Shown: piece after piece, positions 4,275 to 23,666 of the stretch
Position numbering within the stretch: the stretch's first letter is position 1
Layout: each line of letters opens with the position of its first letter
From: Phragmitibacter flavus
Lineage (GTDB): Bacteria > Verrucomicrobiota > Verrucomicrobiia > Verrucomicrobiales > Verrucomicrobiaceae
Direction of reading: 5' to 3'
Assembly (NCBI RefSeq): GCF_005780165.1
Contig: NZ_VAUV01000007.1
Span: 62,001 to 126,000 of the forward strand
Length of the DNA: 64,000 nucleotides
Notes under the pieces: model-generated
What the model was told of the DNA's origin: nothing
Databases searched by the model: none
The model's input: only the letters and a program-made list of their open reading frames with translations
Program-made: the position numbers and the translations under genes

Positions 4275-5216
4275 ATGAAAGCCACTGTCGCTCAGCCGGA
4301 TGAAGTTAATAGAAGCAGATACTGTATAGGAATCGTCGGCGGCAATCCCAACACCAACACCAACGCGAAGGCCAAAGCCGTGTGTTGCCTGATGGTGTTG
4401 ACCTTGATGAGTTTTATCGCGCCCGCCCAATCGGCGGTCACTTTAGGACTGTGGGATTTTGACAATAATGCGGAATTGAATTTCTTAAACACCGCGCCGA
4501 CCGCTGGCCCTTATGGAGGAAGTGTGTATTCAAATTCCGCTGGTGCTGTGGCTCAAGTGTCGGTTTCAAGCCTGACCGTGGGTTCTGGTTTGACTGGATC
4601 TTCGGCTGGAGCCATCAGCGGCACAGGCACCGCGGCTCCTCCGGCTTACAATGGGGTCAGAGGGGCGGATGGAAGCAATGTTTATGTCTTTCCTGCGTCC
4701 AGTGCGGTAACGGGATCTCCGGCGACGGCGACGGCGGCGGTGGACTATTTCAGCGTCACGTTGACGCCGGATGCCTCTAGTTGGCTTTCGGTGAGCGGGA
4801 TCAGTTTTTATGCATGGGCCAACCAGAACTTCACATCAGGAAGTTATAGTTTTTTTGTGCAAAGCAGCCTGACGGGCAACACGATTTTGGGCAGTTTCAC
4901 GAAGGTTCCTGGGGATGCGGGTGCCGCCGTGAACAACAACACGGCCCCGACAGATGCCAACAATTTGTATGCCTTTGATCTCAGTGGGCATTCAGAACTC
5001 ACCAATGTCACCGGCCCTGTCACCTTTTTTGTTGGTGTGTATGGCAATGCCAACGGAAGTTTGCGGTTGGATGAGTTGCAGATCACGGGGAGTGTCGTTC
5101 CGGAACCCAGTCGGGCGATTCTGGTTGGGTTCGCTTTGACGGGATGTCTGTTGCAGCGTCTGCGTCGGAGAAAGTCTTGGAAAAATGGTATAAAGACCTC
5201 TTTTCCAGTCAGTTAG
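4275..5216 (+). CDS. PEP-CTERM sorting domain-containing exported protein
   Basis: A 313-residue protein ending in a PEP-CTERM signal: VVPEPSRA, then a hydrophobic helix (ILVGFALTGCLL), then a basic cluster (RLRRRK). Such tails are recognised by exosortase, usually in exopolysaccharide-producing Gram-negatives; no exosortase gene is in this window. The central part is rich in Gly, Ser, Thr and Ala and resembles other low-complexity PEP-CTERM proteins; no enzymatic motif is visible. Residues about 40-55 (MVLTLMSFIAPAQSA) form the signal-peptide core, so ATG 4392 (second Met of that region) is a plausible shorter start. A 14-residue extension follows the basic cluster, longer than usual. Confidence 0.75.
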   Translation: MKATVAQPDEVNRSRYCIGIVGGNPNTNTNAKAKAVCCLMVLTLMSFIAPAQSAVTLGLWDFDNNAELNFLNTAPTAGPYGGSVYSNSAGAVAQVSVSSLTVGSGLTGSSAGAISGTGTAAPPAYNGVRGADGSNVYVFPASSAVTGSPATATAAVDYFSVTLTPDASSWLSVSGISFYAWANQNFTSGSYSFFVQSSLTGNTILGSFTKVPGDAGAAVNNNTAPTDANNLYAFDLSGHSELTNVTGPVTFFVGVYGNANGSLRLDELQITGSVVPEPSRAILVGFALTGCLLQRLRRRKSWKNGIKTSFPVS

Positions 5217-5267
5217 GCAATATCTGGCCGAGTGATGTCACTGATTATTTTTATTTTCGATTAAAAA

Positions 5268-5310
5268 AGTGTCGACACTATTGTGAACTAGGGATTAAAC
5301 TGTCGACACT
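5268..5310. promoter_or_regulatory. Two palindromic operator candidates upstream of the GntR gene
   Basis: A perfect 12-base palindrome AGTGTCGACACT lies at 5268-5279. A second copy with one mismatch (ACTGTCGACACT) lies at 5299-5310, 31 bases away start to start, about three helical turns. The second copy ends 14 bases before the regulator's ATG. GntR/FadR proteins bind short palindromes as dimers and often repress their own gene, so these are the natural operator candidates for GntR and perhaps for the genes after it. Binding is an inference. Confidence 0.6.
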
Positions 5311-5323
5311 TCAATTTTCTGCC

Positions 5324-6121
5324 ATGACAAAAAACCACATCCCACCTCGGCGAAATTTGGCCAACGAAATCGTTTCCCAATTGCGTAGCGACATCATTTC
5401 TGGCGTCGTCAAGCAAGGCGAAGCCCTTGCCGAACCGGTGCTGGCAAAACGTTTTGGGGTCAGTCGCGCTCCGGTGAGGGAGGCCATCATCGAACTGGAA
5501 CGGGCAGGACTGGTGCAGTTTGAGAGCACCGGCAGGACCCATGTGAGAACGCTTGAGGAGAGGGACATTGCCGAAATCATTGAGACGCGGGTGGCGTTGG
5601 AAACGATGGGGGCGCGGCTGGCTGCCATTCATTGGAATGCGAAGGATTCGCGCTGGGTGGAAGCGAATATTGCGGCGCAAATGGAAGCGGCCACAGGGGC
5701 GGAATTCAGTCAGTTGGACATCGCCATGCATGAATACATCATGAAGTGCAGTGGCAACGGGCGTCTGGTGGTGTTGTGGCAAAACATTCGCTGGCAGTTT
5801 GAGATGGCGTTGACATATATTCACCAGCTCCAGGAAAAACTGGCCTATGATTTGCGCCGGTTCACGGTGACCTGGCATTGGAAGGTGCTGGAGGCGTTGG
5901 CGGCGCGTCAGCCGGAGATGGCGGCGAGGATGATGGGGCAGCACATCACGGGTGCCCTTGAATGGTCCATCCCAGGAATTTCGGAGCCGCCGCCCGGTGC
6001 GCGTCTTGCCCGGAATTACCGGCCAGGCATGAATGCCACCCGTCCTACTGATGATGACGATGATGCCAATGAAGAAATGATCGCCATTGCCAAGGCATTG
6101 GCCAGCAACCGGCCCTCGTAA
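5324..6121 (+). CDS. GntR-family transcriptional regulator, FadR (FCD) subfamily
   Basis: A 265-residue regulator. The N-terminal winged helix-turn-helix has the GntR hallmarks IVSQLRSDIISG, LAKRFGVSRAPVREAIIELERAGLV. The C-terminal all-helical FCD-type ligand domain starts near IAEIIETRVALETMGARLAA; conserved Asp and His residues (including LDIAMHEYIM and the later HWKVLEAL and GQHI) suit a metal/carboxylate-binding site. The ATG at 5324 is chosen because the open frame upstream (from 5144) overlaps the PEP-CTERM gene and the operator-like palindromes, and because the GntR fold begins right here. FCD regulators usually respond to organic or sugar acids, consistent with the aldolase gene 4.7 kb downstream in the same direction. 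The C-terminus is Asp/Ala-rich and unconserved. Confidence 0.9.
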   Translation: MTKNHIPPRRNLANEIVSQLRSDIISGVVKQGEALAEPVLAKRFGVSRAPVREAIIELERAGLVQFESTGRTHVRTLEERDIAEIIETRVALETMGARLAAIHWNAKDSRWVEANIAAQMEAATGAEFSQLDIAMHEYIMKCSGNGRLVVLWQNIRWQFEMALTYIHQLQEKLAYDLRRFTVTWHWKVLEALAARQPEMAARMMGQHITGALEWSIPGISEPPPGARLARNYRPGMNATRPTDDDDDANEEMIAIAKALASNRPS

Positions 6122-6191
6122 ACATCTGCCCATTTCCGCTGAAAAATTCCTCTATCTGACCCCCGCCATTCACCCGCTTCCACCCAGTTAA

Positions 6192-9100
6192 ATGTCCCGG
6201 TTTTCCATCGCACCAATTACCCTATTGATTTTCTCCACGGCTACTTCCGTTTTGGGGGTCGATGACGCGCAGCGTGCGGCGATAAAATTTTTTGAGACCG
6301 ATGTGCGGCCAATTCTGGTAAACCGTTGCTATGACTGCCATGGCGAGTCCAAACAAAAAGGGGGACTTAGGGCGGATCATATTGGCTATCTGAAGGCAGG
6401 CGGTGACACTGGTCCGGCATTGGTGCCTGGAAAGCCGGAGGAATCGACGCTGATGGAAGCGGTGCATTATAAGAATGAAGATTTTCAGATGCCCCCGAAA
6501 GAGAAACTACCGGACGCCGAGATCGCGGTGTTGGAAAAGTGGATCAAGATGGGCGCACCATGGCCGGACAATGACGCCAAGAAAGTGACGTTGACTGAAG
6601 GCGGATTTACTGAGGAACAGCGCAATTACTGGTTCTTCAAGCCGGTGGCCAAAGTGTTGCCACCCAAGGCTGGCGGAGAGTGGGTCCGCAACAAGCTCGA
6701 CCATTTCATCGCTGAAAAACATGCTGAGTTCAAACTGTCGCCTGCACCAGAGGCGGGCCGGCATGAACTGGTGCGTCGTGTGTATTTTGACCTTCATGGT
6801 TTGCCTCCGACGAAGCAACAAATCGACGCGTTTGTGAATGACACCGATCCGAAGTCTTATGAGAAGTTGGTCGATCAATTGCTGGCGAGTCCGCGTTATG
6901 GTGAACGCTGGGCGCAGCATTGGCTGGATCTGGTGCGTTATGCGGAGAGTGATGGTTACAACCAGGATGCCTATCGTCCGTCGGTCTGGCCATACCGGGA
7001 TTATGTGATCCGATCATTCAACGACGACAAACCCTACAATCGGTTTGTGCAGGAGCAACTGGCGGGCGACGAAATAGCCCCTGACGATCCGAATGTGCTC
7101 ATCGGAACCGCTTACATGCGGCACAGCATGTATGAATACAATCTGCGCGATGTGCGTGGTCAATGGGATGTTATTCTTACTGATCTAACCGATACCACGG
7201 GAGAGCTTTTTCTGGGATTGAGCATGGGTTGCGCCCGTTGCCACAACCATAAGTTCGATCCTATCTTACAAAGCGATTATTATCGTCTGCGGGCTTTCTT
7301 TGCCCCGGTGCAATGGCGGGATGATTTGAAGTTGGCGACACCGGTGGAGAACCGGGCGTTTGAGGAACAACAGGCAAAATGGGAGGCGGCGACCGCCGGG
7401 ATACGCGCTAGATTGGACGCCATTGAAAAGCCGCATGTCGAGGAAGCGGTCGAACGCTGGAGGGTTAGTTTTCCTGAGGACCTTCAGGCGATGACGCGCA
7501 AGCCTGTTGAGCAACGGAATGAATTGGAGAAACAACTCGCGGGGTTGTGCGAGCGACAGTTGGAATTTGCCCGCAAGGGGGTCAACGTGCTGGGTCGACT
7601 GAAAACGGACGAGGCCAAGAAGGAATACACGGCCATCAAGGAGGAACTGAAGAAGTTTGATCACTTGAAGCCGAAACCACTGCCGCATGCCTTTGTGGCG
7701 ACGGATGCGGGTCCGGTGGCTCCACCCAACACGCTGACCAACCGCAAAGGTGAACAGGAAGTGGCACCGGGATTCCTTTCGATTGTGGCGCCTGAGTTGC
7801 CGCAGATTGAGGCGACAGAAACATCCACCGGGCGTCGCAAGGCGTTGGCAGACTGGATTACGCGTCCGGACAATCCGTTCACCTCGCGGGTGATGGTGAA
7901 CCGCATCTGGCAATATCATTTCGGACGCGGCATCGTGGCGACCGCCAGTGACTTTGGAACCCTGGGAGAGCCGCCGACCCATCCGGAGTTGCTCGACTAT
8001 CTTGCAGACAAATTCGTGGCAGGCGGCTGGCATTTCAAGCCGTTGCATCGGGAGATCATGTTATCCGCGACTTACCGCCAGACGGCGCGTCGTGAGCCGG
8101 ACCAGAAGGCGGCGGAGATTGATCCAACCAACCGTTATTTGTGGCGCTTTCATCCTCGTCGGCTTGATGCGGAACAGGTGCGCGATTCCTTGCTGGCGGT
8201 GAGCGGCGAGCTGGATGCCAAGAGCAGCGGTCCTGCCGGTGATGGCAACGGCACCAATCGTTCGATCTTCACCATCAAAAAACGCAATACGCCGAATGAA
8301 CTGTTGCGTGCCCTCGACATGCCGGGTGGCTTTGCCAGCACTTCGGAGCGTCAGAGCACCACCACCCCGACACAGGCGTTGCAGTTGCTCAATGGTGATT
8401 GGGTGATTGAGCGCTCCCGCAAGCTGGCTTCGCGAGTGGATAATGTTGAGGATGCCTTTCTCGCGGTTTTGGGCCGTCCACCAAGAGACAGCGAACGAGT
8501 GGCGGCGGAGAACTTCATCGAAAAACGGGTGTCCAAGTCAAAGCCTGTTTCAGCATCCTCGCAGGTTTCCGAGAGTTCATCGTCAGCAGGCGTCTTCAAA
8601 ATCAAAAGTCCGCGTGAGCGTTTGTTGGTCAACACGATGGATAAAGAGGGCGATGAATTCACCGTCGAGGCGGTGGTGAAGCTCGACAGCGTCGACCCGA
8701 ACAGGGAACTGCGCACGCTGGTGTCGCGTTGGGATGGTGGCAAGGGGAGTCTCGAATCCTTCGGCTGGAGCATTGATGTGACCGGCAAGAAGTCGCTCTA
8801 CAAGCCGGGCAACCTTCTGATGCAGCTGGTTGGTGAGGATGAGAATGCGAACATAGGATATCAGGTGGTGGCTTCCAACATCCTCCTTCAAGTGGGTCGC
8901 CGGTATCATTTGGTGATTCGAGTCTCTGCTTCCCGTCACGAGGTGGCATTTACGGTGCATGATCTCGACACCCCAGGTGCGGTGGCGCAATCGGCGGTGG
9001 CACGCATGGACAACCTGGTAAAGCTAAGTCAGGGTGATTCGCCGATTGTTCTTGGGGGACTAAGCAAGCGCACGCCAACGCGGCAGTGGGATGGGAACAT

Positions 9101-9332
9101 CGAAGCCTTGCGCATCATGGTGGGCAATGGCTCGGGAGGCGAGATCCAGCGCGATTCTGGAAAATGGGGGGCAGGGCTGTTTGTGTGGCGCGCGGAAGAT
9201 CCGCCAAGTCCCCAGTTTGCCTGGAGCGGCATCGATTCCGAGGAGAGCGAGGCCAATCAACCCTTCCGTCAGGCAATGAATGACCTGTGCCAGATGTTGC
9301 TCAACACCAATGAATTTTTCTATCTGCATTAA
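6192..9332 (+). CDS. PSCyt1/DUF1549/DUF1553 protein with a LamG-like insertion
   Basis: A 1046-residue exported protein. Order: signal peptide (about 1-22); PSCyt1 cytochrome-like domain with a single CYDCH haem-type motif near residue 50 and the typical MPPK segment; DUF1549 (about 155-390) with LVRRVYFDLHGLPPT, GERWAQHWLDLVRYAES and a second CARCHNHKFDPI motif; a spacer; DUF1553 starting near RRKALADWITRPDNPFTSRVMVNRIWQ; then about 250 residues of LamG/concanavalin-like sequence (FTVEAVVKL ... HLVIRVS ... NIEALRIMVGN) placed before the usual DUF1553 terminus (LCQMLLNTNEFFYLH). Family function is not experimentally established; a surface or periplasmic redox/polymer role is inferred. It precedes a DUF1501 gene by 38 bases, the standard pairing. 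Confidence 0.85.
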   Translation: MSRFSIAPITLLIFSTATSVLGVDDAQRAAIKFFETDVRPILVNRCYDCHGESKQKGGLRADHIGYLKAGGDTGPALVPGKPEESTLMEAVHYKNEDFQMPPKEKLPDAEIAVLEKWIKMGAPWPDNDAKKVTLTEGGFTEEQRNYWFFKPVAKVLPPKAGGEWVRNKLDHFIAEKHAEFKLSPAPEAGRHELVRRVYFDLHGLPPTKQQIDAFVNDTDPKSYEKLVDQLLASPRYGERWAQHWLDLVRYAESDGYNQDAYRPSVWPYRDYVIRSFNDDKPYNRFVQEQLAGDEIAPDDPNVLIGTAYMRHSMYEYNLRDVRGQWDVILTDLTDTTGELFLGLSMGCARCHNHKFDPILQSDYYRLRAFFAPVQWRDDLKLATPVENRAFEEQQAKWEAATAGIRARLDAIEKPHVEEAVERWRVSFPEDLQAMTRKPVEQRNELEKQLAGLCERQLEFARKGVNVLGRLKTDEAKKEYTAIKEELKKFDHLKPKPLPHAFVATDAGPVAPPNTLTNRKGEQEVAPGFLSIVAPELPQIEATETSTGRRKALADWITRPDNPFTSRVMVNRIWQYHFGRGIVATASDFGTLGEPPTHPELLDYLADKFVAGGWHFKPLHREIMLSATYRQTARREPDQKAAEIDPTNRYLWRFHPRRLDAEQVRDSLLAVSGELDAKSSGPAGDGNGTNRSIFTIKKRNTPNELLRALDMPGGFASTSERQSTTTPTQALQLLNGDWVIERSRKLASRVDNVEDAFLAVLGRPPRDSERVAAENFIEKRVSKSKPVSASSQVSESSSSAGVFKIKSPRERLLVNTMDKEGDEFTVEAVVKLDSVDPNRELRTLVSRWDGGKGSLESFGWSIDVTGKKSLYKPGNLLMQLVGEDENANIGYQVVASNILLQVGRRYHLVIRVSASRHEVAFTVHDLDTPGAVAQSAVARMDNLVKLSQGDSPIVLGGLSKRTPTRQWDGNIEALRIMVGNGSGGEIQRDSGKWGAGLFVWRAEDPPSPQFAWSGIDSEESEANQPFRQAMNDLCQMLLNTNEFFYLH

Positions 9333-9370
9333 AGCGGTTCTTCAATCACTCATCCTATCCTAGTCAAGTT

Positions 9371-10777
9371 ATGTCCTGTTATCGTTACGATCATCCTACT
9401 TCACGACGTGATTTTTTACAAACTGCCGGTGGTGGTTTTGGTGCGGTGGCACTGGCTGCACTAATGAGTGAAAAGAGTGAAGCGGCGCCGGTTCTTTTGC
9501 CTCATCGTGCGGCCAAGGCCAGGAGTGTTATCTTTCTATTTATGGAAGGTGGCCCAAGCCATCTGGATACCTTTGATTACAAACCGCTGTTGAACAAGCT
9601 GGCTGGGCAATCGTTGCCGGGGAGCTTCAAGGCACCCCTCACGGCTGCGGGTGAGGCGATGTCTCCACTGTTGGAAAGCAAACGATCATGGAAACAATAC
9701 GGGCAGGGGGGGTTGTGGGTTTCGGACTGGTTTCCCCATGTTGCCCAGCATGCCGATGATCTCGCCATGATCCATTCGTGTGCCTCCAGCGGCATCAATC
9801 ACGCGGGCGGTGTGTGTTCGATGAACACTGGTTCGATCTTTGGTGGCCGGCCATCCCTTGGTGCGTGGGCCTCTTATGGGCTCGGTAGTGAGAACCGGAA
9901 TCTGCCGGGTTTTGTGGTGATCAAAGACAGTGAAGCCACGGTGGTCAATGGTGTGCGCAACTGGGGCAGCGGTTTTATGCCAGCGGTTTATCAGGGGGTG
10001 GAGTTTAACTCTGAGGGAACACCGATCAAGTTCCTCGACAACCCGAAAGGGATGGACCGCGAGCGCCAGCGCGACCGGCTGGACTTTCTTGCGGAGCTAA
10101 ACCGTGAGTTCAATTCCACGCGTGTCAGCAATACGGAGCTTGATGCCCGCATCAAAGGTTATGAACTCGCCTACCAGATGCAGGCCGAAGCCCCTGGAGC
10201 GGTGGATCTGAGCAACGAAACAAGCGCCACAAAAAAGCTTTACGGCATGGACGACAAAAACACGGCCACCTTTGGCAGGAACTGCCTGCTTGCCCGTCGG
10301 CTTGTCGAAAATGGGGTGCGTTTTGTGCAGCTCTACAGCGGTGCCGGCAGCAAGTGGGACAGTCACAAAGGCATTGAGGGCAATCACTCCAGGTTGTGCC
10401 ATTCGGTAGACAAACCCATTGCTGGTCTGCTGGCGGATTTGAAGGCTCGTGGCATGCTTGAGGAAACGCTGGTGATCTGGGGCGGCGAGTTTGGTCGCAC
10501 TCCCATGAGTGAACAGGGGGACGGTCGCGATCATAATCCGACCGGCTTTACCATGTGGATGGCCGGTGGAGGGGTGAGAGCCGGGCAGGCCTACGGTGCC
10601 ACCGACGAACTGGGGTTGTATGCCGTGGAAGACTGTCTGCATGTTCACGACATCCATGCCACCATCCTGCATCTGCTGGGCGTCGATCATACCCAACTTG
10701 TTTACCATCATAAAGGGCGCCCGGAGCGCATCGACCAGAACGAGGGGCATGCGTATAAAAAGCTGTTGGAGGCTTGA
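9371..10777 (+). CDS. DUF1501 domain-containing secreted protein
   Basis: A 468-residue DUF1501 protein. The N-terminus has a Tat signal (TSRRDFLQTAGGGFGAVALAALM). Landmarks are VIFLFMEGGPSHLDTFDYKP, the [26 protein letters not shown] segment, WDSHKG, WGGEFGRTPMSE and GRDHNPTGFTMWMAGGGV, all in family order, followed by HDIHATILHLLGVDH and the YHHKGRPERI tail. It belongs to the longer, classical planctomycete/verrucomicrobial type, unlike the shorter DUF1501 protein at the left edge. Paired with the preceding PSCyt1/DUF1553 gene and followed after 24 bases by an aldolase gene, so all three probably share a transcript. Confidence 0.9.
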   Translation: MSCYRYDHPTSRRDFLQTAGGGFGAVALAALMSEKSEAAPVLLPHRAAKARSVIFLFMEGGPSHLDTFDYKPLLNKLAGQSLPGSFKAPLTAAGEAMSPLLESKRSWKQYGQGGLWVSDWFPHVAQHADDLAMIHSCASSGINHAGGVCSMNTGSIFGGRPSLGAWASYGLGSENRNLPGFVVIKDSEATVVNGVRNWGSGFMPAVYQGVEFNSEGTPIKFLDNPKGMDRERQRDRLDFLAELNREFNSTRVSNTELDARIKGYELAYQMQAEAPGAVDLSNETSATKKLYGMDDKNTATFGRNCLLARRLVENGVRFVQLYSGAGSKWDSHKGIEGNHSRLCHSVDKPIAGLLADLKARGMLEETLVIWGGEFGRTPMSEQGDGRDHNPTGFTMWMAGGGVRAGQAYGATDELGLYAVEDCLHVHDIHATILHLLGVDHTQLVYHHKGRPERIDQNEGHAYKKLLEA

Positions 10778-10801
10778 GCAGGACCACTCACCAAACATTT
10801 T

Positions 10802-11677
10802 ATGGATACTTCACCGCCTACTCAACGTCTCCCGCAATTTGGCACGTGGTTGCAGACCGGATCTCCCATTATTGCCGAACTCGCGGATGTGAGCGGTTTC
10901 GATTGGTTGCTCATTGATCTCGAACACGGCTGCGGAACGGATGCATCCGTGCTTCCGCAACTTCAGGTGATTCGCCGCGCTTCGGCCATCGTCCGTGTCA
11001 GCGCGCCGCATCCTGATCAGATAGCGCGAGCCCTCGACTGGGGCGCGGCTGGCATCATGGTTCCGATGGTGTCGACGGTGGAAAAAGCCGAAGCATGCGT
11101 TCGTTCCATGTATCATCCGCCGCGAGGGAATCGTGGGCTGGCGCGAATGGTGCGGGCCTATCAGTTCGGTCTGGAAAGTGAAACTCCACCGCCGCTTTTC
11201 TTTGCCCAGATTGAATCGATCGAAGGGGTGGAGAATGCCCGGGCGATTGCGGAAGTGGATGGGGTGGATGTCCTTTTTGTAGGGCCAATGGACCTGCAGC
11301 ACAACCTGGATGCTTTTCCACACAACACCACGCGCGACTACGCCGCCTGCTTGCGGGAAGTCGCTGCGGCTGCGGCGTCAGCAGGCAAAGCCTGTGGTTT
11401 GCTGTTGCGGCCTGTTGATGATGCATCAGTGCTTCAAGATCTCGGCTTTACCTATATGGCCAGCGGCACGGACATCACGTTTTTGCGTGACAGCTACCGC
11501 AAAGTTCTTGAGTTGCAGTGGGGTAATCCTGGGAAAACGAATCGGTTGAACGGGTCTAATGGTTCAGCTCCTGACCTTCAAACTGCGCAGACACTTCTAA
11601 CCAGCAAGAATGGTTCAAATGGAGGAATTGCCAAAGCCGAATCTGCCTCAAACGGACAATGGCATTCGAATCCATAA
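10802..11677 (+). CDS. HpcH/HpaI aldolase-family protein (class II, pyruvate aldolase type)
   Basis: A 291-residue protein of the HpcH/HpaI family, which cleaves 2-keto-3-deoxy acids into pyruvate and an aldehyde using a divalent metal. Visible sites are GTWLQTGSP at the start, LIDLEHG with His42, the GAAGIMVPMVST strand, and metal ligands Glu138 (QIESIEG) and Asp164 (GPMDLQ). The arginine of VRVSAPHPDQI is also conserved. About 45 residues at the C-terminus (from about 247) are Asn/Gly/Ser-rich and outside the fold. It is last in the GntR-PSCyt1-DUF1501-aldolase run, suggesting breakdown of a sugar acid whose level GntR senses. The exact substrate cannot be read from sequence. Confidence 0.85.
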   Translation: MDTSPPTQRLPQFGTWLQTGSPIIAELADVSGFDWLLIDLEHGCGTDASVLPQLQVIRRASAIVRVSAPHPDQIARALDWGAAGIMVPMVSTVEKAEACVRSMYHPPRGNRGLARMVRAYQFGLESETPPPLFFAQIESIEGVENARAIAEVDGVDVLFVGPMDLQHNLDAFPHNTTRDYAACLREVAAAAASAGKACGLLLRPVDDASVLQDLGFTYMASGTDITFLRDSYRKVLELQWGNPGKTNRLNGSNGSAPDLQTAQTLLTSKNGSNGGIAKAESASNGQWHSNP

Positions 11678-11783
11678 ACCCTACATCGAAGCACCGAAGC
11701 ATGTTCATGCTCCTCTGATTTTTGATCGGAGATACGTCAACCGTTTCAGTCAGTCATTCACGCAATCCTCACTTCGACATTCT

Positions 11784-12713
11784 ATGAATACGACGCTTTC
11801 ATCCTATAAAACGCATGAGTTCGGCAGGGCCAATATCCTGGGCGCAATTTTCATCGGAATTCTCCATTTTGGGCCCAACACGGAGGCTGCGGTAACTCTT
11901 TCTGTGAGTGGGATCTATGACGAGAACACGCGGGCTGCCAACACCATTGATGCAGAGGCCCCTGGCAATTCAGTGACACTGGCCGCCCATACAGCGGTTG
12001 TCAACGCGGCTTTTAATTTGGGCACAGGGGGAGTGATTAATTTCGACCAGCCAAATGGAGTCAATGCTGACGCGAAGGGTAATTCAGATACCAACAATGC
12101 CGGCTCAAAGACTTTGATCAACGTCAACTATGGTTCCGGAAAGAGTTTTGCGATCAACACTAGTCTGGAGTTTGACATGCACGTATTTACCAGTCTGGCC
12201 GCAATCTCCGGCAATCCAGGGTCTGGGGGGAATTCAAAAGGTATCGCTATGGCAGGGGGTTTGGGGCATGACTTAAAGCCAGGATGGTCGCTTGCATTCG
12301 GGCCAATCAGTGGAGGTGACCCTGGTGAAGCCATTACCACAATGAGCTTTGCCTTGCTATCTCGTGATTTCACCGGTGCTAGGGACCCTATGCAGGTCAC
12401 CGTCGAATGGTTTCTCAACGGAAGTGCCACTCCCTCGTTCACACAAACCGATATGATTGATGACACCAGATATACCGCCGGTGGCGCAACTGGTGACGAT
12501 ACGTTTTTCTCCTACACTGCTCCAATTGGAACTTATATCAGTGGGTTTTCGACAATTTACGGAGGCACAGTGAATACCGACCGTCGCCTGGGCATTGATG
12601 ACATTGGATTCACGACCTCGATTGTTCCAGAGCCTTCACGTGCTCTTTTTATGGGCATGGCGTTTGTTGGTTGCTTGATGAGCCGTCGTCGCGCGGGAGC
12701 AAATTGCGGCTGA
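11784..12713 (+). CDS. PEP-CTERM sorting domain-containing exported protein
   Basis: A 309-residue protein with an N-terminal hydrophobic signal (ILGAIFIGILHFGPNTEAA) and a C-terminal PEP-CTERM tail: VPEPSRA, hydrophobic helix (LFMGMAFVGCLM), then SRRRA. The body is beta-rich, Gly/Asn/Thr-rich, without recognisable catalytic residues. The open frame reaches back to 11610 inside the aldolase gene, but ATG 11784 is chosen because a signal peptide follows it and because the earlier stretch lacks coding character. It ends 31 bases before the Verru_Chthon cassette and points the same way, so it may be a cargo or partner of that cassette; this is inference. Confidence 0.75.
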   Translation: MNTTLSSYKTHEFGRANILGAIFIGILHFGPNTEAAVTLSVSGIYDENTRAANTIDAEAPGNSVTLAAHTAVVNAAFNLGTGGVINFDQPNGVNADAKGNSDTNNAGSKTLINVNYGSGKSFAINTSLEFDMHVFTSLAAISGNPGSGGNSKGIAMAGGLGHDLKPGWSLAFGPISGGDPGEAITTMSFALLSRDFTGARDPMQVTVEWFLNGSATPSFTQTDMIDDTRYTAGGATGDDTFFSYTAPIGTYISGFSTIYGGTVNTDRRLGIDDIGFTTSIVPEPSRALFMGMAFVGCLMSRRRAGANCG

Positions 12714-12744
12714 GGCAGACAATTTTCCCCACTATCTATCTGCC

Positions 12745-13425
12745 ATGGATTCGTTCCAGATATCCAACCGTCTTCGTGAGACTCGCGTTCGCGCCGGTTT
12801 CACCCTGGTGGAGATTCTTGTGGTGATGGTCGTCATGCTGGTCATCTTGACGGTGTCGTTCACTGGACTTGGTGGAGCGATGCGGGGGCTGGCATTGACG
12901 GATGCGGGTAATAAATTCACGCAACTTTGCGATGCGGCGCGGCAGCGGGCGATGAGTGCCAATGTGTTGACGGCGGTGGTCGCGGTGACGGCATTGGGTG
13001 TGCCCGAGGATGGGCGGGCGTTTTGCATTCTTGAATGTCCGCCGGGCGGGCCATGGAAACAGACGAGGGAGTGGGAATTTATTCCGGATGGGATGACACT
13101 TGATCTTTCGACCACGACCGAAAATTTGCAGACGTTTGCGGAGTTGTCTCCAGCAGTGTTTCCATTTAACGGCGGCACAACGGGGGCTCCGGTGGGATTC
13201 CGGAATCATAACAAACTTGCCGAGGGAACTTATGCGGCGCGAATTTTCCTGCCGGGTGGAAGTTTGAAAAATGCCAGTGAGCCAGCGAGGTTTCAGATTG
13301 TGGAGGGAGTGAGTTCTGGTGGGGAGACCACTTATAGTCAGGTGGGCGATGGGCAGACGCCGGTGAACTATTACAGGATCACGCTAATTGGGGCAACCGG
13401 AGGGACCAAGGTGGAGAGGCCATGA
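12745..13425 (+). CDS. Verru_Chthon cassette protein D (GspH-like minor pseudopilin)
   Basis: A 226-residue prepilin-like protein. A short basic leader (to Gly18) is followed by FTLVEILVVMVVMLVILTVSFTGL, a canonical type IV prepilin peptidase site with Glu at mature position +5 (Glu23) and a hydrophobic helix. The rest is a soluble domain without clear motifs. Position, size and motif match the TIGRFAM Verru_Chthon cassette protein D and, by order, the minor pseudopilin GspH of type II secretion. It overlaps the next gene by an ATGA at 13422-13425, implying translational coupling. Processing would need a prepilin peptidase encoded elsewhere. Confidence 0.8.
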   Translation: MDSFQISNRLRETRVRAGFTLVEILVVMVVMLVILTVSFTGLGGAMRGLALTDAGNKFTQLCDAARQRAMSANVLTAVVAVTALGVPEDGRAFCILECPPGGPWKQTREWEFIPDGMTLDLSTTTENLQTFAELSPAVFPFNGGTTGAPVGFRNHNKLAEGTYAARIFLPGGSLKNASEPARFQIVEGVSSGGETTYSQVGDGQTPVNYYRITLIGATGGTKVERP

Positions 13426-13880
13426 TACACCAACGACCCCTTCGTTCTCAGCCTGCGTTCTCACTGGTGGAGGTTGCTCTGGCGCTTGCGGTGGCGAGCC
13501 TGGCCATCATGTCGGTGTTGGGGTTGATGCCGATGTTGATGAATTCGGAAAGGGAGAACACGGCGACGAGTGTGTTCCCGGCGATGTGTTCACAGGTCAT
13601 GGGGAAATTGCGTGATGAAGCTTATCCTGCCGCGCTGCCGGAAGAGGTCCGTTTGATGTTTTTTACCGACCAGGGCACGCTGACTGGGAATCCGACGGAT
13701 GCCGTTTATCGATGCGAGATTTCTCATCGGCCCCTGCCGGTGGAGGCCGCAAGAAGTGGTGGTTCCAATGCGCCGACACCCGGGCACCACTGTCACCTGG
13801 TAGAATTGAAATTCCGCTGGCCGGTGGGTGCATCGGCGGGAGATGTTCGAATTTTCCATGCCACTCTAGCCAATGACTGA
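13422..13880 (+). CDS. Verru_Chthon cassette protein B (GspI-like minor pseudopilin)
   Basis: A 152-residue prepilin-like protein, the shortest of the cassette, as GspI is in type II secretion systems. The cleavage site reads PAFSLVEVALALAVASLAIMSVLGL: the residue before cleavage is Ala12 instead of the usual Gly, Phe13 is +1 and Glu17 is +5. Alanine at -1 is tolerated by some prepilin peptidases. The C-terminal half is a small domain ending in HHCHLVELKFRWPVGAS. The start overlaps the D gene stop by four bases and the stop overlaps the C gene start by eight bases (13873-13880). Confidence 0.8.
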   Translation: MIHQRPLRSQPAFSLVEVALALAVASLAIMSVLGLMPMLMNSERENTATSVFPAMCSQVMGKLRDEAYPAALPEEVRLMFFTDQGTLTGNPTDAVYRCEISHRPLPVEAARSGGSNAPTPGHHCHLVELKFRWPVGASAGDVRIFHATLAND

Positions 13881-14835
13881 CCCCAATTCCATTCCCGAAT
13901 CAAACACCCAGACGCGCCGGACCCAACGAGCAGGACCTTTCAGCGAGAAGGGTTTTACCTTGGTGGAAATTATGGTGGCTTCCGGGGTGCTGGGGCTGTT
14001 GCTGATTTCACTGGCTCAAGTTGCCAGCACGGTGGCCGATACCTGGAGCTCCGGTCATGCCCGGGCCGAGCGTCGTCAACATGGTCGTGCCATCGTTGAT
14101 TTTATTGGCAAGGAGTTGCGATCGGCGGCGCTGCCGGTGCATCGGGAGGTGTTGAGTGGCAAGGCGGATTTGCAGTTCATGCTCAATCCGACCCAGGTGA
14201 GTTCGGAATTAAAAAATCCGCATGCTTTGTTCTGGCAGGCACCGGTGGCAACGGACACTGGGCATGGGTCCTTGGCCAAGCTGGGTTATTTTGTGCGATG
14301 GGATGGCAACAAGCCGATGTTATGTCGTTTGTTCATCAATCCGAATGACAGCAACTACCTGATTTATGATGAGGAGAAGATTGGTTCATGGATGAACGCA
14401 GGCATCAGCCAGTCGGGGACACCAACCTTGCAGAATGGATGGGTTGGACTCTTTGCGGAGAATGTGCTTGGCTTCTGGGCGCGCTGTCTTGATCGCAATG
14501 GTCAACCTATCACCCAGACAGGGGGGGAAGGGCTATTTGATTCGAGAGTCAGTTATACCAGCACCGTGGAAGGGGAGGCGACCACTTATCAGGCGCCGGT
14601 GCTGCCTTTCAGTGTGGAGATTTCCATTGTCATGGTGGATTCACGTTCGGCATCTCGATTTAACGCGGGAGTCAAGACGGCGATCATGGACATGGCAAGC
14701 CGGGCAGGCACGGTCAATGCCGCCACCTTTATTGAGGCGTTGAAAACCGCGTCGGCGCAAGATAGCAAGATGCTTCCGGTGTTGCGCAGTGCGGTGCCTT
14801 ACCAAATGCAAGTTTACCTGGAGAATTCGCCATGA
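13873..14835 (+). CDS. Verru_Chthon cassette protein C (GspJ-like minor pseudopilin)
   Basis: A 320-residue prepilin-like protein. After a 27-residue basic leader comes the class III signal with Gly27 at -1 and Phe28 at +1 (GFTLVEIMVASGVLGLLLISL), with Glu32 at +5. The large soluble part contains RRQHGRAIVDFIGKELRSA, resembling the GspJ region after the helix, and several Trp residues. It matches Verru_Chthon cassette protein C in position and size. Its eight-base overlap with gene B and four-base ATGA overlap with gene A (14832-14835) indicate one tightly coupled translation unit. No catalytic motif is visible. Confidence 0.8.
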   Translation: MTDPNSIPESNTQTRRTQRAGPFSEKGFTLVEIMVASGVLGLLLISLAQVASTVADTWSSGHARAERRQHGRAIVDFIGKELRSAALPVHREVLSGKADLQFMLNPTQVSSELKNPHALFWQAPVATDTGHGSLAKLGYFVRWDGNKPMLCRLFINPNDSNYLIYDEEKIGSWMNAGISQSGTPTLQNGWVGLFAENVLGFWARCLDRNGQPITQTGGEGLFDSRVSYTSTVEGEATTYQAPVLPFSVEISIVMVDSRSASRFNAGVKTAIMDMASRAGTVNAATFIEALKTASAQDSKMLPVLRSAVPYQMQVYLENSP

Positions 14836-17807
14836 AGTTCAAAAGAGATGGGTTCCTGTCAGGGCGTTGCGGGGGAGCGGCGCTGATCATGACGGTGATT
14901 TTGCTGGCCTTGATCACCGTCATGGTGATGGGGTTTGCGAATCTGGTGCGGAATGAAACGGCGTCTGCCAGCTCCCATCAAGGGCGGGGGCGGGCACTGC
15001 TTTTTGCTCAGATGGGCACGGACATGGTGACTTCGACCCTGCGCAATTTGACGGCTGACCCCTCACTAACTTGGGCGAGCCGGCCTGGCGCACTTATCAC
15101 TGCATTGCCTGAACATCCTACTAAACTGGTGGTGCAAACGGATTTGCATTCAGGCATGCCTTCAGCGCGTTTGCTTGATGTCACATCTGATGTTAAAGAG
15201 ATCTTTCGCCCGGCCAACCTGAATGTGTCGACGCTGCATGACAATGGCAGCCATCTTATTACGGACCAGAGTTTGGCTGGTGGTTCTTCGCCGATTTCAT
15301 TGCCATTGCGTTGGGTTTATCTTCGCCAGGATGGTTCGGTGGATTTTGCTGAGGAACCGGATTTGACGGACGAGGACAACCCCGTCACCGGACGTTTTGC
15401 TTATTGGGCGGATGATGAATCGAGCAAGGTGAACATCAACACGGCGTGGAAACGCAACGCCCCTGGGGACAGTAATACGGCGGAGAACTACAATTCGTTT
15501 TTTCCGACGCATCCCAGCGGTGTTGATCTGGCCAGTGTGTTTGCGGAGGCGGATTCTTCTCTTGATGCAGAGGCGGCGCGATTGAAGGCCGACTTTCTGC
15601 ATGCTTACATTACTCCCAATCATCGTTATACCGACATGGCCGGCAGTGCGGGACGGTTCTTTAATGATCTTTCGGAAATGCGCCGGTTGGACCATCTGCC
15701 AGGGTCGCCTGGTGGGTTTGCGACGGCGTTGTCGAATTCGAAGTTTCAGCTCACGCATTACAATCATGATCCTGATACGACGTTTTTTAATGAGCCGCGA
15801 TTTGTGCTTACCACGCAAGAAAAGTATGCGCCGCGCAATCCAGATGGAACGCTGATGAGAGATGCGAACGGGGTTCCTTATTTTCTTGATATTCTTAATG
15901 TGGCGAACAGCGATCCGGGCGAGGCGTCCAGTCAGAATCTTAGCCGGGTGAAACTCGACAAGACGATTCGCAAACTCATCACCTATCTTCAGCGGGTGGA
16001 CTGGCCGATGACATCGAACGAGACGGCCAGTCTTCAGTCGAAATATTATCCCGGGACCAATGAGCTGCGGCTGACGCAACTGGCACTTAACATTCTGGAG
16101 TATGTGCGTAGTGCGGAGTCGTCTTTGGATCTGGTGGAGCCAATCCGGGGGATTATTGATTTGCCGGGCACTTATGGAACACCTGGTGCTTTTGTTGCCA
16201 ATGCGCATGTTTCGGGGGTTATCAACGTAGGGTCCGGTGTGGCGAATATTTATAAAGGCAGCACGAGGAATCTTTTTATCACGGAGGTGTCGGCCTGGGT
16301 GGGAGATACTCCGGTGGTGCGTGGGGGAAATAACTACTGGCCTTGTGAATTGTTTTGCGAGATACACCTGCCTAAGCATGGCGGGCTGGAACAGATTAAC
16401 TTGGCGGACGTGGATGGGAAGATGGTTTCGGTGGGATTTTCCACTTATCTGAAAAGTCCGGGTGAGTTCTTTTCACCGGATACCTTCGCGACTTTTACGG
16501 GGAAATACATTCCCTGTCATGCCACCACCATCATGGGGGGGAATACGATGATTGGGGCGGGGGAATACCGGGTGGTGCGACTTAAGACGGTGATCCGAAT
16601 CAACAACAGGCCCACGACGATGCCGTTGCGACTGGGGTTGGCGTTGGGTCCTAAATTGACTCCTTCGCAGGTGGCGACTGAAGGGGTTCCTGATCCGGGT
16701 TCGGTGGTCAATCATGCGCGGCGGCTGGAGTTGGTGCCGGTGGGGCAGACCTTTACGATGACTTTGGATGGCGCTTCTGTCAGTCCAGAGAGCATCAGAT
16801 CTTATGAGGTGACGGAATACAATGTGAACAGTGTGGCGCGCAGTTGGACTCATGATGAAAACGGCGTGCTGCTCCCGCGGTTGGATCATAGCTTTGGAAA
16901 TGTGAACCAGCGGACGCTGGGTATCTTGGGGAAAGAGGCTTCCTCCTTGACGTTCCTTCCTACGGGTGCACCTGAGCTTGATGTCGACAAGGATGGTAAG
17001 TTGACGGACGTTGGGTTACGCATGCCGTATCCCAAAGGCCATGCGAAAAATCCTCATGGCATTGTGTATTCAGCGGGCGAGTTGGGGTTTATTCATACAG
17101 GGATTGAATCGAACCGGAATGCGACCACGGGTGGTGTGCCGTTTCGCACGTTGAGGCTGCAACCCAGCAGGCACGACACTTCGGTGGTGCCGGACTGGGC
17201 TTTTATGGATTTGTTTTCGGCTCCGGTGGTGGTTCCCAATGCGGTGCGGACGGTGTTTGCTCCGAATGATTCGGCGGTGGCGGGTCGGGTGAATGTGAAC
17301 GCCTTGGTGGAGCCGTATGCGGACGTGACTCGGCACCCGCAACTCGCGGGTTCATTGGAACGTAATCTGCCGCTGATTGCCTTGCTTGCTGGGGTGCCAA
17401 ATCCATCGGAGACGGATGAGGATCGGTTGTTAACCACGGAGCAGGCCAGGACAATTGCCGAGAACATTTATTTTCGTAGGCTGGCGAGCGGGGGGAAGAA
17501 TTATGGTTATGCGGGGGCTTATGATTCGCCGGGAGAGATTGCGGAGATTGAGGGGGTGGCGGATCAGGGGGAGTTGTCGGAGTCGGTGCTGCGGGGGATT
17601 GCGAGTCTTGTGACGACGCGTGGCAGTGTGATCAGCATTTATACGATTGGTCAATCATTGCAACAGACGCGAAGCCGGGAGCTGATGGTGACGGGTGAGC
17701 AGCGACAGCGCACGATGTTGGAGGCGTTGCGCGAGTTGGATCCGACGACGGGTTTGGCGACGCAGGTGAGGTTCCGGAAGGTTGGACACAATGATTTGTA
17801 TCCGTGA
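14832..17807 (+). CDS. Verru_Chthon cassette protein A (giant GspK-like minor pseudopilin)
   Basis: A 991-residue protein, far longer than GspK (about 320 residues). The N-terminus has a basic leader and GGAALIMTVILLALITVMVM without Glu at +5, as in GspK, which is the pseudopilin that normally lacks it. Two copies of a GspK hallmark occur: DDESSKVNINTA at residues 194-205 and AGRVNVNA near 816-823, each followed by helical SAM-like segments with Pro/Leu-rich patterns. The long middle part is beta-rich. In type II secretion GspK caps the pseudopilus tip, so this protein is the expected tip subunit of the cassette. It is followed after 48 bases by the convergent pst operon. Confidence 0.8.
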   Translation: MKFKRDGFLSGRCGGAALIMTVILLALITVMVMGFANLVRNETASASSHQGRGRALLFAQMGTDMVTSTLRNLTADPSLTWASRPGALITALPEHPTKLVVQTDLHSGMPSARLLDVTSDVKEIFRPANLNVSTLHDNGSHLITDQSLAGGSSPISLPLRWVYLRQDGSVDFAEEPDLTDEDNPVTGRFAYWADDESSKVNINTAWKRNAPGDSNTAENYNSFFPTHPSGVDLASVFAEADSSLDAEAARLKADFLHAYITPNHRYTDMAGSAGRFFNDLSEMRRLDHLPGSPGGFATALSNSKFQLTHYNHDPDTTFFNEPRFVLTTQEKYAPRNPDGTLMRDANGVPYFLDILNVANSDPGEASSQNLSRVKLDKTIRKLITYLQRVDWPMTSNETASLQSKYYPGTNELRLTQLALNILEYVRSAESSLDLVEPIRGIIDLPGTYGTPGAFVANAHVSGVINVGSGVANIYKGSTRNLFITEVSAWVGDTPVVRGGNNYWPCELFCEIHLPKHGGLEQINLADVDGKMVSVGFSTYLKSPGEFFSPDTFATFTGKYIPCHATTIMGGNTMIGAGEYRVVRLKTVIRINNRPTTMPLRLGLALGPKLTPSQVATEGVPDPGSVVNHARRLELVPVGQTFTMTLDGASVSPESIRSYEVTEYNVNSVARSWTHDENGVLLPRLDHSFGNVNQRTLGILGKEASSLTFLPTGAPELDVDKDGKLTDVGLRMPYPKGHAKNPHGIVYSAGELGFIHTGIESNRNATTGGVPFRTLRLQPSRHDTSVVPDWAFMDLFSAPVVVPNAVRTVFAPNDSAVAGRVNVNALVEPYADVTRHPQLAGSLERNLPLIALLAGVPNPSETDEDRLLTTEQARTIAENIYFRRLASGGKNYGYAGAYDSPGEIAEIEGVADQGELSESVLRGIASLVTTRGSVISIYTIGQSLQQTRSRELMVTGEQRQRTMLEALRELDPTTGLATQVRFRKVGHNDLYP

Positions 17808-17855: not shown

Positions 17856-18695
17856 TCAACTGAAGCGGCCGGTGATGTATTCTTCGGTTTGTTTCTGGCC
17901 GGGGTTCTGGAAAAGCTGAAGAGTGGGGGCGTATTCGATCAGTTTGCCAAGGTAGTAGAAGGCGGTGCGGTCGGAACAGCGGGTGGCTTGTTCCATGTTG
18001 TGGGTGACCATGACGATGGTGAACTCACTTTTCAACTGCACGATGAGTTCTTCGACCTTGGCGGTGGCGATGGGGTCGAGGGCGGAGCAGGGTTCGTCCA
18101 TGAGGATGATCTCGGGACGGACGGCGACGGCGCGGGCGATGCAGAGACGCTGCTGCTGACCGCCGGAGAGGCCGAAGGCGCTGGTTTGGAGGCGGTCTTT
18201 GACTTCGTCCCAGAGGGCGGCGCCTCGGAGGCTGGTTTCAACGGCTTCATCGAGGATGTTTTTGTCTTTAACGCCGGCGATGCGGAGTCCGTAGGTGATG
18301 TTGCCGTAGATGCTGTCGGGGAAGGGGTTCGATTTCTGGAACACCATGCCGACGCGTTTGCGCAATTCGGTGATGTCCTGGGTGGGGCGGTTGATGTCGT
18401 CGCCGTCGATGGAGAGGGTGCCGGAGGTGACGCGGGCACCGACGACCATGTCGTTCATACGGTTGATGCAACGCAGCACGGTGGACTTGCCGCAGCCGGA
18501 GGGTCCAATGAAAGCAGTGACCTGGCGGGGCGGAATGTCGAGGTGGATGTCGTAAAGCGCCTGCTGGGTGCCGTAGGAAAAGTTCACATGGTCGAAGCGG
18601 ATTTTGGCTTCGGCGGCAGGTGTCGGGGTCGATTCGGACATCGCGGAACTGGGGCGGGCTTTGGTTTGTGGAGGTGATTCAATGGTGGCTTGCAT
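17856..18695 (-). CDS. pstB: Phosphate ABC transporter ATP-binding protein PstB (second copy in operon)
   Basis: A 279-residue ATPase subunit of the Pst phosphate importer. About 30 non-conserved residues precede the domain ([11 protein letters not shown]). Motifs: Walker [12 protein letters not shown] loop [15 protein letters not shown] (typical of PstB), signature [14 protein letters not shown], Walker [14 protein letters not shown] and switch His in VTHNMEQA. It is last in pstS-pstC-pstA-pstB-pstB, 10 bases after the other pstB. The two paralogues are similar but clearly diverged, so this is an old duplication. A Met at residue 19 is an alternative start. It ends 48 bases from the convergent pseudopilin-like gene. 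Confidence 0.93.
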
Positions 18696-18705
18696 GGCGG
18701 TCGGG

Positions 18706-19528
<823 letters not shown>

Positions 19529-19548
<20 letters not shown>

Positions 19549-21202: not shown

Positions 21203-21259
21203 GAAGGGGACGTGCTGAAAGGTTTCGCGAAAGGTTGGGTGCGTGCGTTGCGGTGGGGG

Positions 21260-23584: not shown

Positions 23585-23666
23585 GACGTGTTGGCGAAGT
23601 GGGAGTGTTGGGAGAGAGGTAGGGATGGGGAGCTTGGATCCGATCATCCAGCCGGATGGAAGTGGG

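Follow-up and report, generated by a model that had tools for sequence, protein, structure and literature searches.

Verru_Chthon cassettes of Phragmitibacter flavus as candidate exchangeable minor-pseudopilin tips, some of them beside PEP-CTERM genes

Introduction

The tip of the type II secretion system (T2SS) is formed by four minor pseudopilins, with GspK proposed to lie at its extreme end and to meet the substrates, and Glu5 is missing in GspK and in PilX (PMC7541494, in the portion consulted); XcpX sits atop the tip complex (PMC6211770, excerpt). Several tips might share a single machine, as suggested for Myxococcus xanthus, where one type IVa pilus machine would serve three sets, each of PilY1 and four minor pilins (same portion of PMC7541494), and species with the GlyGly-CTERM/rhombosortase system of protein sorting generally also have type II secretion (PMC3237569, excerpt). 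Here we analyze a cassette of four overlapping genes, denoted D, B, C and A after the Verru_Chthon protein families, in a 64-kb stretch of the genome of the verrucomicrobium Phragmitibacter flavus (G000:C7:62001-126000; hereinafter, the window, with positions counted from its first nucleotide). The host genome is 5.9 Mb in size and 99.9% complete, and the nearest named relatives of its A proteins come from Prosthecobacter and Verrucomicrobium. So could such a cassette, with no machine genes beside it, encode a tip of this kind?

In the literature searched, the coverage of which is incomplete, we found no mention of Verru_Chthon and no paper that treats PEP-CTERM and pseudopilins together, and the combination of Verrucomicrobi with minor pseudopilin retrieved only work on freshwater bacteria of the candidate phyla radiation (CPR). 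The paper that defined PEP-CTERM started from Verrucomicrobium spinosum; the portion consulted contains neither TIGR02598 nor the word "cassette", and its mentions of TIGR0260 are those of TIGR02602 (PMC1569441). In the part consulted, a study of the Akkermansia outer membrane reports PEP-CTERM proteins as well as a pilus secretin and draws no link between them (PMC4960237).

Results

All four genes of the cassette are on the forward strand, at positions 12745-17807. D (12745..13425, 226 amino acids (aa), prepilin motif GFTLVE) is a GspH-like candidate minor pseudopilin, B (13422..13880, 152 aa, AFSLVE) is a GspI- or GspJ-like one, and C (13873..14835, 320 aa, GFTLVE) has a predicted GspJ-like fold; D, B and C are all present in the list of open reading frames (ORFs). 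The fourth gene, A (14832..17807, 991 aa), encodes a giant GspK-like protein that apparently consists of a GspK core with inserts and has no Glu at position +5. The ORFs confirm the overlaps of 4, 8 and 4 bases (D/B, B/C and C/A) described in the earlier note, and the first two of these are preserved in L216, the syntenic locus of another genus. The gene calls come from a custom caller, and some starts are wrong.

A scan of the whole window for prepilin motifs yields D, B and C, each with Glu+5, and no other protein. Across the host and related cassettes in which the motif can be placed, Glu+5 is found in all 72 D proteins, all 72 B proteins and 77 of the 78 C proteins, and neither Glu nor Asp occupies this position in any of the 84 placed A frames (17 of the 101 A frames are not placeable). 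Thus, A combines a prepilin-like N-terminus with the lack of Glu+5, a GspK trait, and the contrast between three signals with Glu+5 and a fourth without it, made in the earlier note for the window, extends to the placed related frames. At the level of sequence, this is the pattern that sets Glu5-bearing pseudopilins apart from GspK; D, B and C appear to be prepilin-type proteins, their cleavage by a prepilin peptidase being predicted from the motif.

The comparison with GspK and GspJ is carried chiefly by predicted structures, which were proposed as a check in the earlier note and, in both cases, yield similar folds (Z 14.3 for A and about 10-11 for C). The model of A, built from 41 sequences (mean pLDDT 54.9, pTM 0.60), realigns to 5vtm_X over 241 of 259 residues (Z 14.3, 3.3 Å) and to 3ci0_K over 265 of 280 residues (Z 14.3, 3.7 Å), both chains being taken as XcpX/GspK from chain letter and length. 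The two best Foldseek matches, 3ci0_K (E 0.067) and 9a1f_T (E 0.26), are pseudopilin-tip entries as well. Among the realignments listed, the next unrelated entry reaches Z 4.0, and the GspK-aligned residues are scattered over positions 44-991; therefore, going by the model, A very probably contains nearly the whole of GspK, broken up by inserts. The model of C, built from 42 sequences (pLDDT 77.4, pTM 0.75), finds XcpW (GspJ) or pseudopilin complexes containing GspJ in its first ten Foldseek matches (best E 7.7e-5) and realigns to GspJ chains, recognized by entry title, chain letter and length, with Z scores of 11.2 (3cfi_B), 10.3 (5vtm_W), 10.1 (3nje_A, XcpW alone) and 9.9 (3ci0_J), compared with 3.6 for an ordinary pilin. 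The model thus suggests a GspJ-like fold for C. When profiles were compared with the sequences of solved structures, A gave no match and C mostly matched N-terminal pilin helices; no PilX or PilW chains are among the matches listed for the two models, which excludes nothing. A weak likeness of residues 478-663 of A to the YEATS domain (Z up to 4.0) was not taken as real.

In accord with the roughly threefold excess over GspK claimed earlier, A compares in length with the 317-aa GspK of the host's C9 operon as 991 to 317 aa. The motifs DDES (residue 194) and NINTA (residue 201) are followed far downstream by GRVNVNA (residue 818), the second NVNA-type segment that had been noted in this protein. 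Conservation along A is high around these two Asn-rich regions (residues 194-205 and 818-824) and at 901-960, and lower at 421-720. The further suggestion that A carries a specific binding or catalytic part is not supported, its middle portion being less conserved and modeled with low confidence.

The family names attributed to the cassette stand firmly for A, which scores 647.3 bits against the TIGR02600 cut-off of 332.3, and less so for D (38.8 vs 70 bits, TIGR02596), B (31 vs 51.4, TIGR02598) and C (49.5 vs 256.5, TIGR02599), which all remain below their cut-offs with matches that span just 55-63 N-terminal residues. Profile models made from host paralogues, the seeds of which include the window C and D and not the window B and A, score the four window proteins at 289.2 (D), 70.5 (B), 297.9 (C) and 352 bits (A) and confirm, as far as sequence models can, their roles as D, B, C and A. 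None of the curated Gsp models reaches its cut-off: the GspK model NF037980 gives 19.1 bits with A (residues 15-84; cut-off 130), the GspJ model TIGR01711 gives 12 bits (cut-off 64.85), and the GspH and GspI models TIGR01708 and TIGR01707 give 21.7 and 13.5 bits (cut-offs 80 and 44.35). The host's own GspK proteins, at 63.7 and 80.7 bits, are under the NF037980 cut-off, too.

Profiles built from 72 D, 70 B, 77 C and 41 A sequences were compared with those of GspG, H, I and J from seven T2SS loci and with a GspK profile of 54 sequences from the phylum; for every cassette protein, the expected Gsp partner has the top full-length score, with ties for B and C. D aligns best with GspH (85.2 over 158 columns) and next with GspG (74.1); B scores 60.5 over 120 columns with GspI and 60.4 over 70 with GspJ; C scores 70.8 over 38 columns with GspJ and 64.9 over 37 with GspG, the E-values being equal; and A scores 74.6 over 83 columns with GspK, the next best value being 35.4. 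Of the proposal in the earlier note that D-B-C-A corresponds to H-I-J-K, and of the profile search suggested to verify it, the following is left: the match appears good for A and C, given their modeled folds, moderate for D, the profile of which is closest to GspH, and weak for B, with its tie between GspI and GspJ, all curated Gsp cut-offs being missed. The gene order adds little, given that D-B-C-A, one of four orders, is found in just 6 of the 13 complete host cassettes. The cassette most likely encodes a complete minor-pseudopilin tip.

How many such cassettes, and how many machines, does a genome have? TIGR02600 identifies 15 A frames in the host and none in 14 control genomes. D, B and C are found beside 13 of these A genes, the other two standing alone, and the 13 complete cassettes show the orders D-B-C-A (five), D-D-B-C-A (one, counted above with D-B-C-A as having an extra pilin), A-B-C-D (four), B-C-D-A (two) and B-C-A-D (one). 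One cassette has its own extra pilin (L050:10552-11154, reverse strand) that can be aligned with GspG over its full length (E 4e-9 to the GspG of C5). A divergent A-like gene, the sixteenth in the host and absent from the TIGR02600 list, is found with a D-like gene behind a PEP-CTERM gene (L215:3107-8217, forward strand). Among 79 loci of other Verrucomicrobiota, which are the best of 349 confirmed hits of a single pattern and in many cases are cut by contig ends, 58 contain all four gene types, and B is immediately 5' of C in 74 of the 75 loci, host loci included, that have both. The six relatives studied contain 24 (G215), 15 (G075), 4 or 5 (G184), 4 (G187), 2 or 3 (G196) and 2 or 3 (G231) A frames, the lower figure excluding weak matches; in G215, 32 of 38 candidates were scored with TIGR02600. 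A phylum-wide count of A (207 of 387 genomes matched, 7 over the cut-off) was not used because at most two candidates were scored per genome and most of the listed matches cover about 60 N-terminal residues.

Non-tandem GspE-type ATPases scoring above 400 bits number three in the host and in G187, G184, G196 and G231, two in G215 and one in G075. The tally of cassettes against T2SS loci called for in the earlier note, extended to these seven genomes, accordingly reveals more cassettes than machines in the host. The T2SS loci have minor pseudopilins of their own, G-K in L052, L215, L218, L219, L220 and L221 and G-J in L054, as assigned from gene order, profiles and GspK matches; the host C9 operon matches the E, F, G, H, I, J, K, M and D models, with G alone passing the curated cut-off. 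In the window itself, no ATPase, platform, secretin or major pseudopilin was found, as the earlier note had it, such genes existing elsewhere in the genome: genome-wide searches for the ATPase and secretin families gave no match inside the 64 kb, and nine host machine proteins (E, F, G, pilin, D and L types) gave no credible match there (best 12.3 bits, to a 1330-residue frame), the GspG query hitting D itself at 12.2 bits. Since there are fewer machines than cassettes in the genome, borrowing a machine, one of the two options given in the earlier note, is the natural reading; which machine is borrowed can be suggested with less assurance.

One candidate is a tandem pair of GspE-type genes that is present in all seven genomes. 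In the host, the pair is at L053 (G000:C3:400000-413899), with a GspF-type gene and a 212-residue pilin, so close to the contig end that one flank is hardly seen. In the stretches read around the pair (including L235 and L238-L241), six of the seven genomes show one pilin and no second convincing prepilin, and no pilin is seen near the pair in G075. A search with the A model found no A proteins in the tandem-pair stretches, L237 giving no match at all; a separate stretch of G231 (L236) has a cassette about 17 kb from its tandem pair. The tandem-ATPase machine would thus be a pilus machine apparently without a tip and a candidate recipient of the cassettes. A further prepilin motif match in L235 was judged spurious. 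Separately, at L048:2596-14049 (C17), a D-B-C-A cassette and a secretin gene are about 4 kb apart, the interval being occupied by a short PEP-CTERM gene and two further genes.

The most conspicuous neighbors of the host cassettes are genes for PEP-CTERM proteins, which directly adjoin 9 of the 13 complete cassettes, a tenth having one gene in between; of the nine, one is fused in frame and two (L041 and L046) were judged from frames with tails outside the locus. The fused frame (L038:4958-11074, reverse strand) joins a PEP-CTERM protein with beta-strand repeats to A in 2038 residues without a stop and is either a true fusion, a case of an internal start or a sequence error. In a placement test, the null of which takes into account how many PEP-CTERM frames there are and how long they are, assumes independence of the genes (which is not quite true) and ignores clustering, a PEP-CTERM frame is found no farther than 3 kb from 10 of the 15 host A genes (expected 3.2, P 2e-4) and from 14 of the 24 in G215 (expected 2.6, P 2e-8). 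Because the PEP-CTERM model at E up to 10 matches 12 of the 14 control genomes (2 over the cut-off), this test used over-cut-off matches only; 9 of 126 matches were left out in the host, 7 of 79 and one in a 71-residue frame in G215, and 6 of 33 in G075, one of those dropped in G215 (C134) being right beside an A gene. Candidates were scored in incomplete sets in the host (150 of 220) and G215 (150 of 180), so that their PEP-CTERM lists may be short, and in full in G075 (84 of 84). Where an A frame had an N-terminal match alone, as was the case for one in G215 and for eight in G075, its far end was placed by manual estimate, and two host A frames (C21 and C6:75k) were taken from gene calls. 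The partner frames within 4.5 kb are longer than other PEP-CTERM frames in the host (medians 1313 vs 355, P 0.003), less clearly so in G215 (1737 vs 831, P 0.051) and not in G075 (713 vs 618, P 0.93), and both large partners scanned contain PATR repeats. The host has three exosortase matches over the cut-off, and of 26 readable PEP-CTERM tails (L061-L090), 18 are of the PEP-x-Arg and 6 of the PEP-x-Ser type; with three exosortase genes, the two tail classes may be sorted apart. The PEP-x-Arg tail was dropped as a mark of cassette partners, many PEP-CTERM tails without a cassette having it too in an incomplete comparison.

In the window, the cassette is the end of a unit (5144-17807) in which all genes point the same way; as far as D, neighboring genes are separated by 24 to 106 bases, and from there on they overlap. 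The unit is headed by a GntR/FCD regulator (5144..6121; the start may be 5357), followed by a PSCyt1-PSCyt2-PSD1 protein (6192..9332), a DUF1501 protein (9371..10777), an HpcH/HpaI aldolase (10802..11677) that is probably in the same transcription unit, and the proposed partner, a PEP-CTERM surface protein (11784..12713, 309 aa at the given start, in a frame that opens upstream of 11610), all on the forward strand, with D beginning 31 bases behind the latter. This protein scores 14.9 bits with TIGR02595 (cut-off 16) and 18.0, over the cut-off, in the genome-wide search. The same order, from GntR/FCD to A, is found at L216 of G215, with identities of 66, 72, 84, 68, 47, 78, 67, 70 and 78.5%, the PEP-CTERM partner being the least conserved, as expected of an exposed protein. 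The description of the cassette as an orphan is thus not supported by its context: a PEP-CTERM gene is 31 bases upstream, the unit is conserved in two genera, and the genome has at least 14 further A genes. A second PEP-CTERM gene (window 4275-5216), 65% identical in G215, heads the syntenic block 5' of GntR. On the other side, pst-like phosphate transporter genes (17856-23647, reverse strand; named from their translations), including two ATPase genes, end beside the cassette; in the G215 stretch L216, the ATPase gene that lies downstream of the window cassette was found to have no relative.

Discussion

The scenario that we prefer, with about even confidence, is that the cassettes encode exchangeable, locus-specific tips of the H-I-J-K type for a shared machine, with the neighboring PEP-CTERM protein as the probable cargo in some genomes. 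Under this scenario, the four proteins would assemble into one fibre, each tip starting and capping a fibre built by a machine encoded elsewhere. This machine could be a T2SS or else the tandem-ATPase pilus with its single visible pilin. The outermost end of the fibre would be A, and the insert of A, which is large and less conserved, would recognize a target specific to the locus. In the host and G215, the thing recognized would most likely be the neighboring PEP-CTERM protein, pushed or placed across the outer membrane; in other genomes, perhaps, a secreted enzyme or polymer.

Several findings weigh against this scenario. By E-value, C is as near to GspG as to GspJ, and B is equally close to GspI and GspJ. 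Without the N-terminal helix, the probabilities for the globular parts are all below 10%, the raw globular scores favoring D-H, C-J and A-K and, for B, GspJ (17.4 over 15 columns) over GspI (14.8 over 51 columns). The model of A is weak overall, with the low mean pLDDT and best Foldseek E-values given above, and the C model also matches the Thermus pilin TTHA1219 (Z 12.1), so that its fold is not exclusive to GspJ. Weaker full-length ATPase-family matches (282-349 bits), one or two in each, occur in five of the six relatives. As for the proposed cargo, one of the 15 A genes of G075 has a PEP-CTERM frame within 3 kb, no more than the 1.2 expected, and five have one within 4.5 kb (P 0.011); the host signal is weaker within 500 bases (6 of 15, expected 2.0, P 0.01). 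In the host, no PEP-CTERM frame comes closer than 4.5 kb to three of the 13 complete cassettes or to either lone A gene, and just 11 of the 117 PEP-CTERM frames have an A gene at a distance of 3 kb or less. In the pooled loci from other genomes, there is no excess next to cassettes, with PEP-CTERM proteins accounting for 11 of 106 genes at a distance of one gene, then 7/105, 6/94, 7/83, 5/69 and 1/47, and 5/51 at seven or more, the near-duplicate loci L095/L097, L107/L108, L114/L149 and L121/L135 being retained in this count. A phylum-wide rule of PEP-CTERM partners was accordingly rejected.

An alternative that we consider tentative is that the cassettes equip a pilus, probably the tandem-ATPase one, with tips for adhesion or capture. 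An extracellular polymer would then be bound by the insert of A and digested by the neighboring gene products, and the PEP-CTERM proteins would be extra surface parts rather than cargo. Such a role fits the tandem locus, where no minor pilins were found near the pilin in the six genomes that show one, and the GntR, HpcH aldolase, PSD1 and DUF1501 genes of the window unit. It also fits the genes next to cassettes in other genomes, where the families listed among 96 genes include LacI (7), PATR (4), GH28 (3), GH16 (3) and GH130 (3); these tallies use 96 of 108 near and 96 of 253 far genes, with one of each near-duplicate pair dropped. However, sugar-related families are also common among the 96 genes farther away (the first 25 families listed, as for the near genes, include LacI, 3, and PATR, 2), so that the excess near cassettes is modest, and the models of A and C match GspK and GspJ, which belong to secretion-system tips. 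By analogy, the pili-like fibres of two planctomycetes that bound gold-labelled dextran (PMC5394234, excerpt) would make capture a serious rival. We find it unlikely that the tips are real and work on a shared T2SS and that the PEP-CTERM adjacency is meaningless, both kinds of genes gathering in fast-changing surface-protein regions: this would agree with the lack of excess in G075 at 3 kb and in the pooled genomes, with the partner being 47% and the cassette 67-78% conserved in G215, and with the quite different partner of an A paralogue about 42% identical (L047), but two genomes do show an excess over a null adjusted to the number and length of PEP-CTERM frames (clustering not modeled), the syntenic locus in another genus has a PEP-CTERM gene at the corresponding position, and a frame that joins PEP-CTERM to A exists (L038).

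Returning to exchangeable tips with PEP-CTERM cargo, an intriguing, if doubtful, extension is a "tool-changer" pilus, in which one conserved machine of tandem ATPases, platform and one pilin, having lost its own tip or never had one, would be served by 2 to 24 exchangeable H-I-J-K cassettes scattered over nutrient and surface-protein loci. Each cassette would be under the same regulation as its locus and would be dedicated to a single surface protein or polymer. If true, this would mean that PEP-CTERM proteins, sorted by exosortase, depend on a pseudopilus to complete their passage across the outer membrane. More generally, the preferred reading suggests how PEP-CTERM proteins might take an outer-membrane step, and protein families that so far have only been named would receive a likely function. 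The choice of cargo by T2SS is an old open question, and with at least 15 natural tip variants and few machines, cassette swapping could put it to the test.

Comparison with known systems

Against the background of the GspH-I-J-K tips (Xcp, Eps and ETEC Gsp), the cassettes are alike in comprising four subunits, three with Glu+5 and one without, and in the predicted GspK- and GspJ-like folds. They are unlike them in that no machine genes lie alongside, A is three times longer, with inserts between two GspK-like motifs, scores fall far below the curated Gsp cut-offs, and a single genome has at least 15 A genes in several gene orders. With respect to the Verru_Chthon families A-D (TIGR02600, TIGR02598, TIGR02599 and TIGR02596), A is a clear member and the four-gene set is the named cassette, whereas the window D, B and C are under the cut-offs, and the names, judged by the titles of the models, carry no function; what is new relative to this naming is the H-I-J-K mapping, the number of copies versus machines and the PEP-CTERM adjacency. 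The GlyGly-CTERM system shares a C-terminal sorting signal, but in the excerpt consulted it is linked to no particular T2SS subclass, whereas here a pseudopilin set is found beside the sorted protein. M. xanthus, in the portion of the source consulted, resembles the present case in having alternative four-pilin sets for one machine, a PilX without Glu5 and a large surface protein, PilY1, in each set. It differs in that its machine is a type IVa pilus with three sets and PilY1, in contrast to the T2SS-like predicted folds, the 2 to 24 A genes and the PEP-CTERM neighbors in some genomes only that are seen here. By analogy, the M. xanthus sets could serve as a precedent for several tips on one machine.

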